Origin: Gammaproteobacteria bacterium
Lineage (GTDB): Bacteria; Pseudomonadota; Gammaproteobacteria; Burkholderiales; Gallionellaceae
DNA: 64,000 nt
Direction of reading: 5' to 3'
NCBI GenBank assembly: GCA_018820925.1
Contig: JAHJNJ010000026.1
Span: forward strand, 1-64,000
Part shown: positions 2,350 through 16,920 of the stretch, in pieces
Layout: each line of letters begins with the position of its first letter
Numbering within the stretch: position 1 is the stretch's first letter
Position numbers and translations under genes: made by a program
The notes under the pieces: model-generated
Seen by the model: only the letters and a program-made list of their open reading frames with translations
Databases searched by the model: none
Told to the model about the DNA's origin: nothing

Positions 2350-4182
2350 TCACTCCGCCGCGCGCATCGCCTTTTTGCGGTCGAATTCTTTCAGGAAACG
2401 TTTGCGGATACGGATGGACTTCGGCGTCAGTTCCACCAGTTCGTCGTCGTCGATGAACTCGACAGCCGATTCCAGCGTCAGCTTGATCGCGGTCGTCAAA
2501 CGCACCGCTTCGTCCGTGCCGGAAGCGCGCACGTTGGTGAGTTTCTTGCCCTTGATCGGGTTGACGTTCAAATCGTTATCGCGCGTATGGATGCCAATGA
2601 TCATGCCTTCGTACAGCTTGTCGCCCGGCACCACGAACATGCGGCCGCGATCTTCCAGGTTCCACAGGGCATAAGCCACGGCTTCGCCGTCTTCCGCCGA
2701 AATGAGCACGCCGTTGTGGCGTCCAGGCAAATCAGCCTTGACCGGACCGTAGTCGTCGAACACGTGGCTGATCAGCCCGGTGCCGCGCGTCATGGTCATG
2801 AAGTCGGACTGGAAGCCGATCAGGCCACGCGCCGGGATGTGGTATTCCAGACGGGTGCGGCCCTGGCCGTCGGATTCCATGTTGGTCAATTCGCCGCGAC
2901 GGCGACCGATCTCTTCCATCACCGCACCCTGATGTCCGTCTTCCAGGTCGATGCTCAGGTTCTCATACGGTTCGCATTTCTCGCCGTTGATCTCCTTGTA
3001 AACCACGCGCGGCTTGCCCACGGCCAGCTCGAAGCCCTCGCGGCGCATGGTTTCCAGCAAAATGGTCAGGTGCAATTCGCCACGACCGGAAACGCGGAAT
3101 ACGTCGGCATCGGCCGTGTCTTCGACCTTCAGCGCAACGTTGGTCAGCAATTCCTTGGTCAGGCGATCGCGGATCTGGCGGCTGGAAACAAACTTGCCTT
3201 CGGTACCCGCCAGCGGCGAGCTGTTCACCATGAAGTCCATGGTCAGCGTCGGCTCGTCCACCAGCAGCATGGGCAGGCCGACTGGATTGTCCTTGTCGCA
3301 AATGGTGACGCCGATGCCGATCTCGTCCAGGCCGGAAATGATGATGATGTCGCCCGCTTCGGCGCTCTCCACCGCCACGCGCTCCAGCCCCTGGAAACCC
3401 AGTACCTGGTTGATACGGCCGGAGCTGACCTGCTTCTCATGGTTCATCACCACCACGTTCTGGCCGGGCTTGATTCGCCCGTTCAACACACGGCCAATGC
3501 CCAGACGTCCGGTGAAAGTAGAGTAGTCGAGTGCGGCCAGTTGCAGTTGCAGCGGCGCTTCGGGATCGCCGGGCGGCGTCGGCACATGCGTCAATACGGT
3601 CTCGAACAACGGCTTCATGTCCGCAGCCGATCCGCCGCTGGACGGGGCATCCTTCAAATCCATGCAGGCCCAGCCATTCAGGCCGGAAGCATAAATGACC
3701 GGAAAGTCGAGTTGCTCGTCGGTTGCGCCAAGTTTGTCGAACAGATCGAAAGTCTGGTTCAGCACCCAGTCCGGGCGCGAGCCGGGACGGTCGATCTTGT
3801 TGATCACGACGATGGGCTTCAAACCCAGCGCCAGCGCTTTCTTGGTCACGAAACGGGTTTGCGGCATCGGGCCTTCCACCGCATCCACCAGCAGCAGCAC
3901 GCCGTTCACCATACCCAGCACGCGCTCCACCTCGCCACCGAAATCGGCGTGTCCCGGTGTGTCCACGATATTGATGTGGGTGCCTTCGTATTCGATGGCG
4001 GTGTTCTTGGCCAGAATGGTGATGCCGCGCTCTTTTTCCAGATCGTTGTTGTCCATCACGCGGATTTCCAGTTTCTGGTTGGCGCGGAAGGTGCCGGACT
4101 GGCGCAGCAACTGGTCAACCAGTGTGGTTTTGCCGTGGTCAACGTGGGCAATGATGGCGATGTTACGGAGGGCGCGGGACAT
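2350..4182 (-). CDS. typA: Ribosome-associated GTPase TypA/BipA
   Basis: [31 protein letters not shown]-domain motifs, BipA C-terminus. Confidence 0.96.
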
Positions 4183-10063: not shown

Positions 10064-10855
10064 ATGTCCATCAGTATCAAGACCCCGCAGGAAATCGAAA
10101 AAATGCGCATCGCCGGGCGTTTGGCCGGAGAGGTGCTGGATTACATCACCCCTTTTGTACAAGCGGGTATCACCACCGAAGAGCTGGACAAACTGTGCCA
10201 TGACTACATGGTGAAAGAACAAGGCTGCATTCCCGCGCCGCTCAACTACGCGCCGGGCGGACATATGCCCTATCCGAAGTCCATCTGCACTTCGATCAAC
10301 CATCAGGTCTGTCACGGCATCCCCAGTGACAAGAAACTGAAAAACGGCGATATCGTGAACCTGGATGTCACGCCGATCAAGGATGGCTGGCACGGCGATA
10401 CCAGCCGCATGTATTACGTCGGCGAACCGTCCATTCAGGCCAAACGTTTGTGCGAGGTCACCTACGAGGCGATGTGGCGCGGCATCCGTGTGGTCAAAGC
10501 GGGCGCCTATCTGGGTGATATCGGCCAGGCCATCCAGACCTTTGTCGAAGGCAAGGGCTACAGCGTGGTCCGTGAATTCTGCGGGCACGGCATCGGCAGC
10601 AAGTTTCACGAAGAACCGCAAGTCCTGCATTACGGCAAAGCCGGCACAGGCGTGAAACTGGAAGCGGGCATGATCTTCACCATCGAACCGATGGTCAATG
10701 CCGGCAAAGCCGGCATCAAGCAACTGGGCGACGGCTGGACCGTGGTCACCAAAGACCACAGCCTGTCCGCGCAATGGGAACACACCATCCTGGTCGCCCC
10801 GACCGGCTTTGAAGTGCTGACCCTGTCCGCCGGTTCCCCGCCTGTACCCGCGTGA
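10064..10855 (+). CDS. map: Type I methionine aminopeptidase
   Basis: MSISIKTPQEIEKMRIAGRLAGEVLDYI; metal ligands in NLDVTPIKDGWHGDTSRMY and CGHGIGSKFHEEPQV. Confidence 0.95.
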   Translation: MSISIKTPQEIEKMRIAGRLAGEVLDYITPFVQAGITTEELDKLCHDYMVKEQGCIPAPLNYAPGGHMPYPKSICTSINHQVCHGIPSDKKLKNGDIVNLDVTPIKDGWHGDTSRMYYVGEPSIQAKRLCEVTYEAMWRGIRVVKAGAYLGDIGQAIQTFVEGKGYSVVREFCGHGIGSKFHEEPQVLHYGKAGTGVKLEAGMIFTIEPMVNAGKAGIKQLGDGWTVVTKDHSLSAQWEHTILVAPTGFEVLTLSAGSPPVPA

Positions 10856-13404
10856 CCTCGAATACAATGAAGACCATCTCTGAAATCAGGGACAGTCTGC
10901 GCCTTGCGCGCCGCAAGCTGCAGGAAAGCTATACAACCCGTCACCAACCTGCGCGTCACCTGCATGCCCACACCAGGATAGTCGACGAGCATCTGCGCAT
11001 GGTGTGGCAATTGCTGGCCATGCCGCCCGAGCTCGCTTTGGTTGCGGTGGGCGGTTATGGACGCACCGAGCTTTTTCCAAAATCCGACATCGACCTGCTC
11101 ATCCTGCTGCCGCAGCAACCCGATGAACAGTTGCAACAACGCCTGCAGGAACTGGTCGGCAATTTGTGGGATATCGGACTGGAAGTCGGCCATAGCGTAC
11201 GTACCATCGGCGACTGTATGGCCGAGTCTTCGGACGTGACCGTGCAGACCAACCTGCTGGAAGCCCGCCACATCACCGGCAGTTATCCCCTGTTTGCCGA
11301 AATGCGTGAAACGCTTTCCGAACACCTGAACCGGCGCGCCTTCTATCTGGCCAAGGTGAAAGAACAGGAACAGCGCCACACGCGTTTTCTCGACACCGAC
11401 TACAACCTGGAGCCGAACCTCAAGGAAAGTCCCGGCGGCTTGCGCGATCTGCAGACCGTATTGTGGATCGCCCGCGCCAGCGGATTCGGCGATACCTGGC
11501 GCAAGCTGGCCGAGGCAAAACTGATCACCGCGCAGGAAGCAACAGTCATCGCGCGCCACGAAAACCTGCTGCAAACCTTGCGCATCCGCCTGCACTACCT
11601 GGCCGGCCGGCGCGAAGACCGCATCCTGTTCGATTTCCAGACCGAACTGGCCGAGCAGATGCATATCGAAGCGACCGAAACGCGCCGCGCCAGCGAACAC
11701 CTGATGCAGCGCTACTACCGCACCAAGCGCGCAGTGCTGCAACTCAATGCCGTGCTGCTGGAGAATCTGCATACCCATCTGTTCCCGGAAGGCGCCACAA
11801 TTCGCCCGCTCAACGAACGCTTCCTGGCACGCGACAACCTGCTTGAGGTGCGCGACGACACGTTGTTCGAACACGACCCATCGGCCATTCTGGAAAGTTT
11901 CCTGCTGATGGAACAGCACCCGAGCCTGACCGGATTTTCCGTGCCGACCGCGCGTGCGCTGCTGCGCGCGCGCCCGAGAATCGACGCCGCATTCCGCCGC
12001 AACCCGCATAACCGCGAGCTGTTCATGAAGATACTGCGCCAGCCGCAGGGCATCACCCACGTGCTGCGGCGCATGAGCCGCAACGGCATCCTGGGACGAT
12101 ACCTGCCCGCCTTCGGCCGCATTGTGGGCCAGATGCAGCACGACTTGTTCCACGTCTATACCGTGGACGAACACATCCTGATGGTGGTGCACAACGTGCG
12201 CTGTTTCGCGCTGGAAAAACACGCGCATGAATTCCCGCTGTGCAACAAGCTGATGAAGGATTTTGCGCGGCCCGAAGTGCTGTATATCGCCGCGCTGTTC
12301 CACGACATCGCCAAAGGCCGCGGCGGCGACCATGCAACAAAGGGACGTGTCGACGCGGCGCGTTTTTGCAAACAACATGGCCTGACCAGGGAAGATAGCG
12401 AGTTGGTGGTGTGGCTGGTTCAACACCACCTGCTGCTTTCCTCCACCGCACAATCCAAGGATTTGTCGGACCAGGACATCATCGCAGCCTTCGCACAAAA
12501 CATTCCGAACGACCGCTATCTGGTCGCACTGTATCTGCTCACCGTGGCCGACATTCGCGGCACCAGCCCGAAAATCTGGAATGTGTGGAAAGGCAAATTG
12601 CTGGAAGACCTGTTCTGGTCAACCCGGCGTTTCATGGTGGGCGGCAAGGTCGCCAACCTGGTCGGCGAAGTGCGCCGTCTCGCCGCCGAAACGCTGAACC
12701 TCTACGCTGTCAATCCCGAAGCATACGAACTGCTGTGGGCACAACTGGATGCTGAATATTTCCTGCGCCACGAGCCGCATGAAATCGCCTGGCATACCCG
12801 GTTGTTGTCGCATCGCGTAAACAGCGCAACACCCGTCGTCAAGGCGCGCTTGAGCCGTATCGGCGAAGGCCTGCAAGTGCTCGTCTATACGCCGGACAAA
12901 CCCTACCTGTTCGCGCGCATTTGCAGCTTCTTCGCCCACATGAGCTACAACATCATGGAAGCCAAGGTGCACACCACCCATCACGGCTACGCGCTCGACA
13001 GCTTCCTGGTGATGGATGCGAACAATGAAAAGACCGTCTATCGCGACGTGATGAATTTCATCGAATACGAACTGGCCCAGCAACTGACCAGCGACGCACC
13101 GCTGGCGACACCAGGCGTCGGCAGGGTCAGCCGCCAGTTCAAACACTTCCCCATCGCCCCGCAAGTCATCATCGCCCGGGACGAAAAAGGCCGCCATACC
13201 CTGTCCATCGTGGCCGGCGACCGCACCGGCCTGCTGGCACGCATCGCCTACCTGCTGGCGCAGCATCACATCGAACTGCGCAGTGCCAAGATCAATACCC
13301 TGGGTTCCCGCGCCGAAGACACGTTCTGGATCAGCGGCGAAGCACTGGATAGACCGCAGGAAGTAGATGGACTGCGCAAGGCTTTGCAGATACAGCTCGC
13401 CTGA
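10852..13404 (+). CDS. glnD: [Protein-PII] uridylyltransferase / UTase-removing enzyme GlnD
   Basis: GGYGRTELFPKSDIDLLIL nucleotidyltransferase motif, HD domain (ALFHDIAKGRGGDH), two C-terminal ACT domains; start overlaps map stop (GTG 10852 or ATG 10867). Confidence 0.95.
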   Translation: MTSNTMKTISEIRDSLRLARRKLQESYTTRHQPARHLHAHTRIVDEHLRMVWQLLAMPPELALVAVGGYGRTELFPKSDIDLLILLPQQPDEQLQQRLQELVGNLWDIGLEVGHSVRTIGDCMAESSDVTVQTNLLEARHITGSYPLFAEMRETLSEHLNRRAFYLAKVKEQEQRHTRFLDTDYNLEPNLKESPGGLRDLQTVLWIARASGFGDTWRKLAEAKLITAQEATVIARHENLLQTLRIRLHYLAGRREDRILFDFQTELAEQMHIEATETRRASEHLMQRYYRTKRAVLQLNAVLLENLHTHLFPEGATIRPLNERFLARDNLLEVRDDTLFEHDPSAILESFLLMEQHPSLTGFSVPTARALLRARPRIDAAFRRNPHNRELFMKILRQPQGITHVLRRMSRNGILGRYLPAFGRIVGQMQHDLFHVYTVDEHILMVVHNVRCFALEKHAHEFPLCNKLMKDFARPEVLYIAALFHDIAKGRGGDHATKGRVDAARFCKQHGLTREDSELVVWLVQHHLLLSSTAQSKDLSDQDIIAAFAQNIPNDRYLVALYLLTVADIRGTSPKIWNVWKGKLLEDLFWSTRRFMVGGKVANLVGEVRRLAAETLNLYAVNPEAYELLWAQLDAEYFLRHEPHEIAWHTRLLSHRVNSATPVVKARLSRIGEGLQVLVYTPDKPYLFARICSFFAHMSYNIMEAKVHTTHHGYALDSFLVMDANNEKTVYRDVMNFIEYELAQQLTSDAPLATPGVGRVSRQFKHFPIAPQVIIARDEKGRHTLSIVAGDRTGLLARIAYLLAQHHIELRSAKINTLGSRAEDTFWISGEALDRPQEVDGLRKALQIQLA

Positions 13405-13650
13405 TGCGATCCTGAACTGGAAGTACCTGTCCGGAATCGCCAAAAGCTGTCGTTCGTCACACCGGCCTGATCAATACACATCATTATTTCCGGCTTATAC
13501 CCATAGCGGCCAAGGTGTGGTTCAATGTGCCCGGAATATTCAATATTGCGAGGTTGCTAATGAATCAACTGGTTATCGAGAATCTGCGCGCCTCACTATT
13601 TTTAATAATACTGACCGTTAAGTCCGTTTAATAACAGTAGGGCCAAGAAT

Positions 13651-14109
13651 ATGTACAAATTCATCGGTCGACATGCCCCGGTAGTCATTGCACTTGTTTT
13701 CTCTAGTTTCGTATTAATCGCAGGCGCATGGCTGGCATGGCAATGCAACCCAGCTTGGTTAAATAGAGCAGGTGCATTAATCATCATCGCTGGCGTGCTG
13801 CTTGGAGCATCTAGATTTTACGAATGGGTTCAGCAAAAAATAGCTGACTTCGTTCAAGCAAACTACGATTCCATCGCAAACGATGCGCTGACTGTCATAG
13901 AGGCGGAGAGAACTAAACCCTTTGATGAAGCCGATCACCTTCGTATTCGTACCAGCATCAAAGAGGAACTTCACAAGGATTTCGGAGAAATCTTCGCCGA
14001 AGACAAAACGCGCTTGAAGAAGTGGGAGATTTACCTCATCGTCATAGGAACGTTTCTTAACGGCTTTGGCGACTACCTAGTGTCCATCCTCAAGGCGCAT
14101 GGCACCTAA
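13651..14109 (+). CDS. Hypothetical small membrane protein, cassette-like gene 1
   Basis: 152 aa with two hydrophobic segments; stop TAA lies inside ACCTAAC. Confidence 0.65.
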   Translation: MYKFIGRHAPVVIALVFSSFVLIAGAWLAWQCNPAWLNRAGALIIIAGVLLGASRFYEWVQQKIADFVQANYDSIANDALTVIEAERTKPFDEADHLRIRTSIKEELHKDFGEIFAEDKTRLKKWEIYLIVIGTFLNGFGDYLVSILKAHGT

Positions 14110-14163
14110 CCCATCCATCAATCCTGCGCAAAAGCGCACAGCCCCTCACTTTTGCATTAGCCA
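14103..14163 (+). other. attC-like site 1
   Basis: CACCTAAC ... TGCGC-AAAA-GCGCA stem ... GCATTAGCC; overlaps the stop of the preceding ORF. Confidence 0.55.
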
Positions 14164-14175
14164 TCTCAAGTCACC

Positions 14176-14838
14176 ATGACCCTTTCCGACGTCGCTCAAA
14201 TCGCTCAAAGTGCCTCGATAATCCTTGCATCTCTCTTTGCCATCTATGGGTTCGACGCTTGGCGGCGTGAACACATCGGGAAACGGCGCATAGAGCTTGC
14301 GGAGGAAGTTCTTGCACTGTTCTACCAAGCTCGCGATGCCATCGCTGCAATACGCAGTCCATTGGGCTACGAGGGCGAGGGAAAGACGCGAAAGCCTGGC
14401 CCAAATGAGCGACCGGAAGATAAGGACGGTTTGGATCAGGCATACGTACTAATTGAGCGGTACAACAGCCACTCTGAGCTCTTCTCTCGCATCCACTCAT
14501 TGCGCTACCGCGTAATGGCGCAACTGGGGCTAGAGGCTGCCAAACCTTTCGACGCCCTGAACGAGATTATTCACGAACTCATAGTCTCCGCACATCGGAT
14601 GTCACGGCTCAATACTCGCCGTGAGTGGGCTTCGCATTCGCCGGAAGCAGAGGCGAAAAATCACCGTGAATTCCTTGAAATTCATAACATCTACTATGGC
14701 ACTGGAGGTGCCGATGACCCGATATCGCCTCGCATCAAGCAAGCTGTTTCAGATATCGAGCGTACATGCCGAAGCATCATCGAAAGCCAAGGGACACTTT
14801 TTGCCATCTTCAACGCAAGGTTGCGAAAAGATGGCTAA
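14176..14838 (+). CDS. Hypothetical protein, N-terminal TM plus helical domain, cassette-like gene 2
   Basis: 220 aa; starts just after attC-like site 1; stop TAA lies inside GGCTAAC. Confidence 0.65.
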   Translation: MTLSDVAQIAQSASIILASLFAIYGFDAWRREHIGKRRIELAEEVLALFYQARDAIAAIRSPLGYEGEGKTRKPGPNERPEDKDGLDQAYVLIERYNSHSELFSRIHSLRYRVMAQLGLEAAKPFDALNEIIHELIVSAHRMSRLNTRREWASHSPEAEAKNHREFLEIHNIYYGTGGADDPISPRIKQAVSDIERTCRSIIESQGTLFAIFNARLRKDG

Positions 14839-14905
14839 CCCGGCGGTGCAGGGGACGCTGCGCGATAAAGCGTCGCGCAGCGTCTCTGACCTTAAACGCT
14901 AAAGC
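14833..14905 (+). other. attC-like site 2 (strongest)
   Basis: GGCTAACCCGGCGGTGCAGGGGACGCTGCGCGATAAAGCGTCGCGCAGCGTCTCTGACCTTAAACGCTAAAGC; 12-bp perfect central stem GACGCTGCGCGA/TCGCGCAGCGTC extended by further pairing. Confidence 0.75.
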
Positions 14906-14907
14906 TT

Positions 14908-15228
14908 ATGGAATTGTGGCCAAATAACGTGTGGATAGCGCTGGTTGCTGTTATTACACTTATTATCGTAATGCAATTCGCCTTCGATGCTTTCATCTTG
15001 GCCATTGGCTCCCTCATCGTTTGGGTTCTTTCGGCTGGGCGCATCAAAACTGGAGAGCGGAGGGTTATTGGGAAATCACCGCCAAAACCAAATGGTGGGC
15101 AAATCTTTTATTATGAAAACTCGGCGACTTACATGTACCAAAACTTTGTTGCCTTGGTTGGTCTTGTCTTTGTATTGTCTGGCCTCACTGCAATATTTGG
15201 TTACGGCATGTGGACAACTGCGCTCTAA
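14908..15228 (+). CDS. Hypothetical membrane protein, cassette-like gene 3
   Basis: 106 aa, hydrophobic segments; starts 3 nt after attC-like site 2; stop TAA lies inside CTCTAAC. Confidence 0.6.
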   Translation: MELWPNNVWIALVAVITLIIVMQFAFDAFILAIGSLIVWVLSAGRIKTGERRVIGKSPPKPNGGQIFYYENSATYMYQNFVALVGLVFVLSGLTAIFGYGMWTTAL

Positions 15229-15301
15229 CTCTCCATTCGCGCGTAGTGATAAAACGACGTGTCGCAGCCCAACCCAGCGTTCCAGCGAACGCGCCTAAAG
15301 C
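15223..15301 (+). other. attC-like site 3 (degenerate)
   Basis: CTCTAAC at the ORF stop; ends GCGCCTAAAGC, matching the ...CTAAAGC end of site 2; directly abuts the glnD fragment. Confidence 0.45.
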
Positions 15302-15302
15302 G

Positions 15303-15472
15303 GCGCGCATCGCCTACCTGCTGGCGCAACACCACATCGAACTGCGCAGCGCCAAGATCAACACACTGGGCGCCCGCGCCGAAGACACGTTCTGGATCAG
15401 CGGAGAAGCACTGGATAGACCGCAGGAAGTAGACGAACTGCGCAAGGCTTTGCAAATACAGCTTGCATGATG
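15303..15472 (+). pseudogene. Duplicated 3' end of glnD (C-terminal ACT domain fragment)
   Basis: Gap-free alignment to 13237-13406; 14 differences by hand count, 12 synonymous; encodes ARIAYLLAQHHIELRSAKINTLGARAEDTFWISGEALDRPQEVDELRKALQIQLA. Confidence 0.92.
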
Positions 15473-15647
15473 AAAACAGATGATTGCGGTTTATTTTGCA
15501 TATACTGTAAAGTGATTTTGCTGATAGATTGCACGGAGTGGAAACGGTATGGGCAAACAATCCATGATGCTTACGTATGCACTCCGATAGCGCCCCTAAT
15601 AATTGGCAGTCACGTTAGCCATTTTAAGGCTACATCAAGGAGAAATT

Positions 15648-16157
15648 ATGGATGCAACTACATGGGGTTTTGTCGGAGCATTAGCTGGTACAGTCATTGG
15701 TGCTGCTGCCAGTATATTCACAACTCTCATTACAAACTGGAATGCATCCCGACTTCAACAAAATGCCGACTCCTTAGAACGTGCTGAACGAGCAAGATCA
15801 TTTCAGAGAGACAATCTTTTAGAGTTACAAGTTTCAATTCAAGATGCCATGCGTCTCGTCGGGCGAGCTCACCATGAGGACGTAGTAGCATCAAAAAAAA
15901 GCGGGGGTTGGGGCGAGTCGAAGCTTAGTGAAGAGGTAAACCAAAACATTCATTTAACTAATACGAAATTATCCGTTCTTAGTGTGCGTGTAGCGGATGA
16001 TGATTTACGATCTAAGCTAGAGCTACTCCGTAGAAAAATCACCAAATGTCTTTTCGCAAAATCGGAAATAGAAGGAGAAGCATTAATTTTGGATGCCCTC
16101 TCTGAATTCAATACATTTATGGAGCAACTTGGTAAGGTTCTTCGGAGTAATTATTAG
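15648..16157 (+). CDS. Hypothetical protein, N-terminal TM plus helical domain
   Basis: 169 aa ORF (MDATTWGFVGALAGTVIGAAASIFTTLI...) with RBS-like aaggagaaatt. Confidence 0.65.
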   Translation: MDATTWGFVGALAGTVIGAAASIFTTLITNWNASRLQQNADSLERAERARSFQRDNLLELQVSIQDAMRLVGRAHHEDVVASKKSGGWGESKLSEEVNQNIHLTNTKLSVLSVRVADDDLRSKLELLRRKITKCLFAKSEIEGEALILDALSEFNTFMEQLGKVLRSNY

Positions 16158-16251
16158 CCAAAACTAAACGGTGGCTGCATCACATTCCATTTCGCACCAC
16201 CATACGAAGCGTCCCTCGCACAAACAATGGCTGATTCTCCTCGGCCATTTC

Positions 16252-16920
16252 TCATTCCTGGATCTCCCACTCTTTCTGTACCACCCACGCAGTCCTGTCG
16301 GCCAACTCAGCCAGGCTGGCAGCTTGCAGCGCAGAAGCCGGTAACACCCATCCTTTACCGTCAGGCAGATCACGTGTGGCGGTGGCAGCCGCAACAATGA
16401 TCGGCACATAGCCCTGGTCGCGCGCAGCACGTGCTGTCGAGCTGACGCAGTTGTGCGTCATGAAGCCCACGATGATGAGGTTCTTTCGGCCCGTGCGCTG
16501 GATCGCTTCTTCCAGTTTGGTATCCGCAAAAGCACTCACCCGCATTTTTTCGATCACCGTCTCGCCGGTTAGCGGCTGAAGCGGCGCGACAATTTCAAAA
16601 TATGGTCCGTCCGGATTGAATAATCCACCTTTGCCTTTGTGCATGATGTGGATGACCGGCGTGCCGGACTTTCTGGCACGGGTCAGCAGTTGCGCGGTTT
16701 CGGCGATTGCAGCATCGACGCCGACCAGCGGCAACGCACCGTCGACATATTCGCGTTGTGCATCGATGATGATCAACACTGCATTTGAAAGTCTGGCGGG
16801 CTCGGGCTTTGCGCCTGCCATTTCGAACAGGGTTTTGGGTAATGCGGCGGCTTGAGCTGGGAAAGCGAAGCACAGAATGCTGATCAGGATAGTTCCGAAT
16901 AATTTCATTGTATTCTCCAT
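16252..16920 (-). CDS. Isochorismatase-family cysteine hydrolase (secreted)
   Basis: Signal peptide; VLIIIDAQREYVDGALPLVG; GFMTHNCVSSTARAARDQGY. Confidence 0.85.
   Translation of the reverse strand: MENTMKLFGTILISILCFAFPAQAAALPKTLFEMAGAKPEPARLSNAVLIIIDAQREYVDGALPLVGVDAAIAETAQLLTRARKSGTPVIHIMHKGKGGLFNPDGPYFEIVAPLQPLTGETVIEKMRVSAFADTKLEEAIQRTGRKNLIIVGFMTHNCVSSTARAARDQGYVPIIVAAATATRDLPDGKGWVLPASALQAASLAELADRTAWVVQKEWEIQE

Follow-up and report, generated by a model that had tools for sequence, protein, structure and literature searches.

A block of small open reading frames (ORFs) beside glnD is, in our reading, the remnant of an integron cassette array that is headed by an orphan attI and has no integrase of its own, and from sequence comparisons we put the probability of this at about 0.8. 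It lies in the window (the whole stretch of DNA analysed, 64,000 nt), which is contig C18 of a 3.44-Mb genome from an iron-oxidiser-like bacterium whose genus, going by its GlnD relatives, is close to Sideroxydans/Gallionellaceae. The head element, attI-B, is scattered through this genus, and the window array is a fossil of a dispersed, integrase-less, attI-headed kind. The original prediction had described a CALIN-type array of three cassettes directly downstream of glnD. A cassette array without an adjacent integrase is what we find as well; overlooked at the time were the attI head, the full integrase gene on contig C43 of the same genome, and the partial glnD duplication that breaks the block.

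The inserted block beside glnD

Two models are named below: R1, a home-made attC covariance model trained on 20 attC sites from related genomes with the source genome left out, and R2, a sequence-only model of attI-B. The block and its flanks contain the following features.

10852..13404, + strand: glnD, intact, the left flank (Pfam GlnD/HD/ACT)
13538..13641, + strand: attI-B, the putative array head, its 5' part lost or decayed (R2 68.2 bits, E 1.6e-19; nhmmer E 7e-28; alignment)
13651..14109, + strand: cassette 1 ORF (ORF1), 152 aa, membrane-protein-like, no family (ORF call, profile searches)
14104..14162, + strand: putative attC1, degenerate, with part of the L'' arm missing and ATTAGCC for GTTAGCC in the R' box (R1, 3.7 bits)
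14176..14838, + strand: cassette 2 ORF (ORF2), 220 aa, patchy distant homologues only
about 14834..14908, + strand: attC2, a clear attC with a 12-bp stem, R' box GCTAAAGC and not GTTAGGC
14908..15228, + strand: cassette 3 ORF (ORF3), 106 aa, resembling a membrane protein, without a homologue among 300 genomes of the order
15267..15307, + strand: putative left half of attC3 (R''-L''-central hairpin arm), truncated (R1, 11.5 bits; repeat edge)
15302..15472, + strand: glnD 3' fragment, 92% identical to 13236-13406 (171 nt)
15648..16157, + strand: ORF4, 169 aa, within the inserted region and missing at the locus in relatives
16252..16920, - strand: isochorismatase-like gene, the right flank, directly after glnD in the closest relative

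In that closest relative (G010), whose GlnD C-terminus is 93% identical to that of the source genome, glnD is followed after a gap of ~200 nt by the isochorismatase gene, and ORF1-4 are not there. A further relative (G003) has a different insert between the same two genes. On this comparison with relatives, 13405-16251 is an insertion. Its GC content is 0.48 as against 0.60 in glnD, with cassette-like values of 0.45-0.53 within it. The G003 insert (4.6 kb, L138:984-5530) includes, by inspection, an indolepyruvate oxidoreductase-like and a phenylacetate-CoA-ligase-like gene, and the interval between glnD and the isochorismatase gene seems to have taken up foreign DNA repeatedly. No tRNA that could serve as an island target was found at the locus, and an Rfam scan of the window returned no family. 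The ORFs are not fixed syntenic genes, given that they are missing at the glnD locus in relatives and that a search of 300 genomes of the order gave nothing close to ORF2 or ORF3.

The three small same-strand ORFs are as first described, each with a TAA stop that sits in an attC-like box (ACCTAAC, GGCTAAC and CTCTAAC). Searches of the ORFs against Pfam, NCBIfam, PADLOC and PHROGs gave nothing above cut-off; ORF4 has one weak PHROGs match, to a family without an assigned function. ORF2 has a few distant homologues (30-40%) in four plasmid records, and no homologue of ORF1 was found among plasmids. The ORF4 region (15603-16157) shows CACGTTAGCC and a good ribosome-binding site upstream. ORF4 may be a further cassette; no attC was found behind it.

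The claim that an attC follows each ORF stands best for site 2, where the 12-bp perfect stem reported after the second ORF is present (GACGCTGCGCGA/TCGCGCAGCGTC). Over 64 nt this site matches the first attC next to the integrase gene on C43 at 89% identity (E 3e-18), and R1 gives it 19.6 bits (E 0.047 in 79 kb; E 0.0019 in a 3.1-kb stretch with filters off). As a palindrome with core boxes that the model recognises, the R' box being altered, it is a genuine attC with a damaged R' box. Sites 1 and 3, at only 3.7 and 11.5 bits (R1, filters off), are not significant alone. Most of the former can be aligned with an attC of one relative, G006 (L181), and on that alignment it would be a degenerate attC. 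The latter had been misplaced: CTCTAAC (15225) was dropped as its start, as the attC-like sequence begins with GCCCAAC at 15267 and ends at 15301 where the glnD fragment starts, and it reads as the left half of an attC. R1 also finds both sites on C43 and further sites on C1, C8, C31, C40 and C50 of the same genome. A CALIN is a cluster of attC sites lacking an integron-integrase, which under the IntegronFinder 2 rule has at least two attC and no intI nearby (PMC9024848). The window array has one attC detectable by R1, the other two being degenerate or truncated, so that by the strict rule it is not clearly a CALIN. That the block is no integron at all and holds unrelated ORFans and chance inverted repeats would agree with the scores of sites 1 and 3, but this reading is refuted by the matches of attC2 (E 3e-18) and attI-B (E 1.6e-19) and can hardly be right.

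The glnD fragment noticed after the third ORF is a repeat of 13236-13406 at 15302-15472. The two tails differ at 14 of 171 sites, and as 12 of these 14 differences are synonymous, each tail must have evolved as part of an intact gene. A relative is the probable source of one of the two, and no donor or intermediate for the duplication was found. The right junction lies within attC3, at a GGCGCG that the attC hairpin and glnD have in common. Such a repeat could also be the mark of a site-specific integrative element that entered the glnD 3' end and brought a replacement tail with it. The geometry of intact glnD, cargo and displaced tail has this form, and at the 14 differing sites the downstream tail agrees with G010 at 8 and the upstream tail at 4. 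However, profile searches show a cargo without recombinase, the right junction is in an attC hairpin and shows no core repeat other than the glnD homology itself, and the arrangement is absent from relatives at the genus loci examined, all of which makes an integrative element improbable.

attI-B and its integrases

When the inserted DNA was compared with relatives, 13543-13643 turned up in many genomes of the genus and at two more places in the source genome, on C8 and C40, where the copies stand directly upstream of attC-bearing cassettes. R2 finds four copies in the source genome, those on C8, C27 and C40 and that in the window. attI-B is of constant length in the alignment (129-132 nt), and the similarity stops at ...CTAATAACTG^TTAGGC, after which each copy enters a different cassette. 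In the window the crossover region is AACAG^TAGGG (~13634-13640) and the core is AACAGTAGGG in place of AACTGTTAGG. The heptamer GTTAAGT (13618-13624), once considered the end of an upstream recombination site, sits inside attI-B and is therefore not a cassette boundary. Covariation was too weak to argue for selection on an attI-B hairpin, with two compensatory pairs and a score reached by 9 of 500 shuffles. No match to attI-B was found in plasmids, or in viral contigs when these were scanned with one exact pattern.

An integrase was said to be absent from the window and to be worth looking for elsewhere, and a TIGR02249 search of the whole source genome bears this out on both counts: there is none in the window, and a full-length gene is on C43 (482 bits, cut-off 265). 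Remnants lie on C11 and C14, and no intI adjoins the attI of the window array. The copies of attI-B and the integrase genes on other contigs of the source genome are as follows.

C8 (L213:5826-5955): attI-B copy, heading cassettes with canonical attC sites
C40 (L209:1421-1549): attI-B copy, heading cassettes with canonical attC sites
C27 (L292:82-207): further attI-B copy
C43 (L009:1182-2126): full-length integrase gene, IntI-A (TIGR02249), with an attI and two cassettes, the array being cut off where the contig ends
C11 (L010:14762-14974): broken IntI-A C-terminal tail, 96% to the intact gene
C14 (L011:6615-6755): broken IntI-A C-terminal tail, 87% to the intact gene

The contig ends of C1, C31, C40 and C50 also bear attC sites, and may be parts of the C43 array or of others. 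The attI of IntI-A was considered as the same element and set aside; the IntI-A types of the genus, that of the source genome included, have attI sequences unrelated to attI-B.

A different integrase goes with attI-B. In genome G017 the element lies between an integrase gene and the first cassette, which is where an attI belongs, and this position identifies it as an attI. The G017 integrase is 44-52% identical to the other integron integrases compared, and five closer relatives (61-81%) came out of a search of 400 genomes of the order. attI-B has the same position in four of them (G071, G381, G269 and G264; R2 E 2e-14 to 1e-3); in the fifth, R2 misses a sequence at that place that looks much like it. 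In a tree the six integrases, IntI-B, form one clade with 100/100 support and a long branch, and in the alignment the G017 protein retains the R, HxxR and H/Y catalytic motifs. The six loci are L172, L312, L313, L314, L315 and L316. IntI-B appears to be a deeply branching group of integron integrases that has a long attI of a separate kind, and attI-B, which by R2 and nhmmer is homologous to the sequence between IntI-B and the first cassette, would be the attI of this clade.

Orphan copies across the genus

R2 finds at least 51 copies of attI-B in at least 24 of 34 genomes of the genus, with 1-6 per genome; these counts are lower bounds, as only the best candidates per genome were scored. Of the attC sites within 2.5 kb of the 51 copies, 48 lie downstream and in the same orientation as the copy, 1 lies upstream and 3 are on the opposite strand, and 31 copies have at least one downstream attC. 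The loci mostly differ and the flanks are mostly unrelated, with a shared chromosomal locus for two pairs of copies (L237/L238 and L246/L311). Cassettes might also have been inserted at a non-conserved attG site downstream of glnD to give an ordinary CALIN, with no attI involved. IntI-mediated attG insertion is on record (Loot et al. 2024, cited in PMC11023631), and the source genome has an intact-looking IntI-A. The array head, however, is conserved over 130 nt and recurs in 50 further copies in the genus, which all have the same end joined to cassettes, and an attG origin is very improbable.

IntI-B adjoins one of the 51 copies, that of G017. Searches by tblastn with both integrase types gave no convincing IntI remnant in the fetched flanks of the 50 orphan copies, the only matches being two weak ones (E 7e-4 and 0.01). 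Thirteen of the 24 genomes with attI-B, the single-contig G004 and G023 among them, lack any integron integrase that reaches E 1e-60. Many orphans, at loci unrelated to one another, share an extra leader that is roughly 80-110 nt long and comes in two subtypes. This leader is unlike the intI-side flank of G017, which only one copy, in G006, has in common. Two species, G013 and G010, have in common a 1,775-bp unit (L304:2388-4162 and L306:817-2591) that comprises leader, attI-B, cassettes and attC; its two copies are 99.83% identical and have unrelated flanks on both sides. In G020 and G019 a shared stretch of about 700 nt (86%), located at different places, takes in the leader, attI-B and the first cassette. 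Both cases suggest that the attI-B head travels with cassettes and without an integrase. The ends of the 1,775-bp unit, TCGGCC...GGCCGA, have no inverted repeat beyond these six nucleotides and no target-site duplication in the one unit pair available, and are not those of a MITE or transposon; a common 3' tail was seen only in this one shared unit.

We tentatively propose, with slightly less than even confidence, that attI has become uncoupled from its integrase in this genus: a leader plus attI-B unit of ~220 nt would spread without intI to further places in the chromosome, dock cassettes in trans and seed small arrays, and units with cassettes would cross between species. The window array might instead have decayed in place, from a complete IntI-B integron beside glnD that lost its intI, with the other attI-B copies as remnants of separate complete integrons. 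attI-B does belong to a real IntI clade, the G006 orphan has the intI-side flank of G017, the source genome holds two broken IntI-A tails (C11 and C14), and repeated integrase inactivation is known in Xanthomonas (PMC12444791). Decay in place is nevertheless unlikely, as the 50 orphans show no IntI-B remnant beyond the two weak tblastn matches, many of them have the other leader in common at unrelated loci, and the 1,775-bp unit moved without an integrase. The simplest competing view is that of many independent integrase losses, which may have occurred; alone, they leave the shared leaders and the recently moved unit unexplained.

History of the array and related systems

In our reading of the block, cassettes 1-3 would have been inserted one after another at attI-B by IntI-B or another IntI acting in trans. 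The array would later have joined the glnD locus by homologous recombination in the glnD 3' end, and its other end may have been closed by an illegitimate microhomology join inside attC3, leaving the second glnD tail behind; the GGCGCG microhomology spans just 6 nt of GC-rich sequence, which counts against such a join. All recombination sites have subsequently decayed, namely the attI core, the R' boxes of attC1 and attC2, and half of attC3. Given the 5' loss and core change of attI-B, the altered R' boxes and the half attC3, the array is probably immobile now and its cassettes fixed passengers. The sequence comparisons themselves show the identity of attC2, the homology of attI-B, the insertion, the truncation of the attC3-like sequence and the duplicated glnD tail; the acting integrase, the order of events and the present immobility are what we infer.

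Integrase-less cassette clusters are usually explained by loss of the integrase, by translocation, or by insertion at sites that are poorly defined. Dispersal of attI-B, with cassettes nearly all downstream, gives a further and testable route, in-trans capture at dispersed landing sites, and a scattered integrase-less attI suggests how such arrays may arise and spread. The matter is of some generality, in that sequenced genomes contain clusters of this kind about as often as complete integrons (PMC9024848). The finding also points to a deep integron-integrase clade with a long attI of its own.

Like a CALIN, the window array has same-strand cassettes with attC, no adjoining integrase and an integrase elsewhere in the genome; unlike one, it has a conserved attI head, and its degenerate or truncated attC may fail the two-attC rule. 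With a sedentary chromosomal integron (intI-attI-cassettes) it shares an attI, that of IntI-B, followed by cassettes on one strand, but it lacks intI, and attI-B occurs at several loci per genome and dozens in the genus. Dispersed CALINs away from the integron are known in Xanthomonas with an inactivated integrase, and there, too, arrays persist and freeze once the integrase is lost; the platform stays at ilvD, whereas here attI itself is dispersed, and the available portion of that report mentions no conserved attI head for the dispersed CALINs (PMC12444791). Insertions at attG likewise place cassettes outside the main array, but attG sites are divergent genome sites, in contrast to the conserved 130-nt head of the window array (Loot et al. 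2024, cited in PMC11023631). The MITE-flanked mobile integrons of Acinetobacter resemble the attI-B units in that integron parts are moved by sequences without a transposase gene (PMC3934969); the attI-B units differ from these in having no inverted-repeat MITE or target-site duplication that we could find and in carrying no integrase. In a limited literature search we met no account of a conserved attI that is scattered while its integrase is missing, and we regard the novelty of such an element as provisional. Among the arrangements seen in the genus, G014 has two attI-B copies back to back (L296:2376-2505 on the - strand and 3445-3570 on the + strand), each at the head of its own array, and these arrays run in opposite directions.
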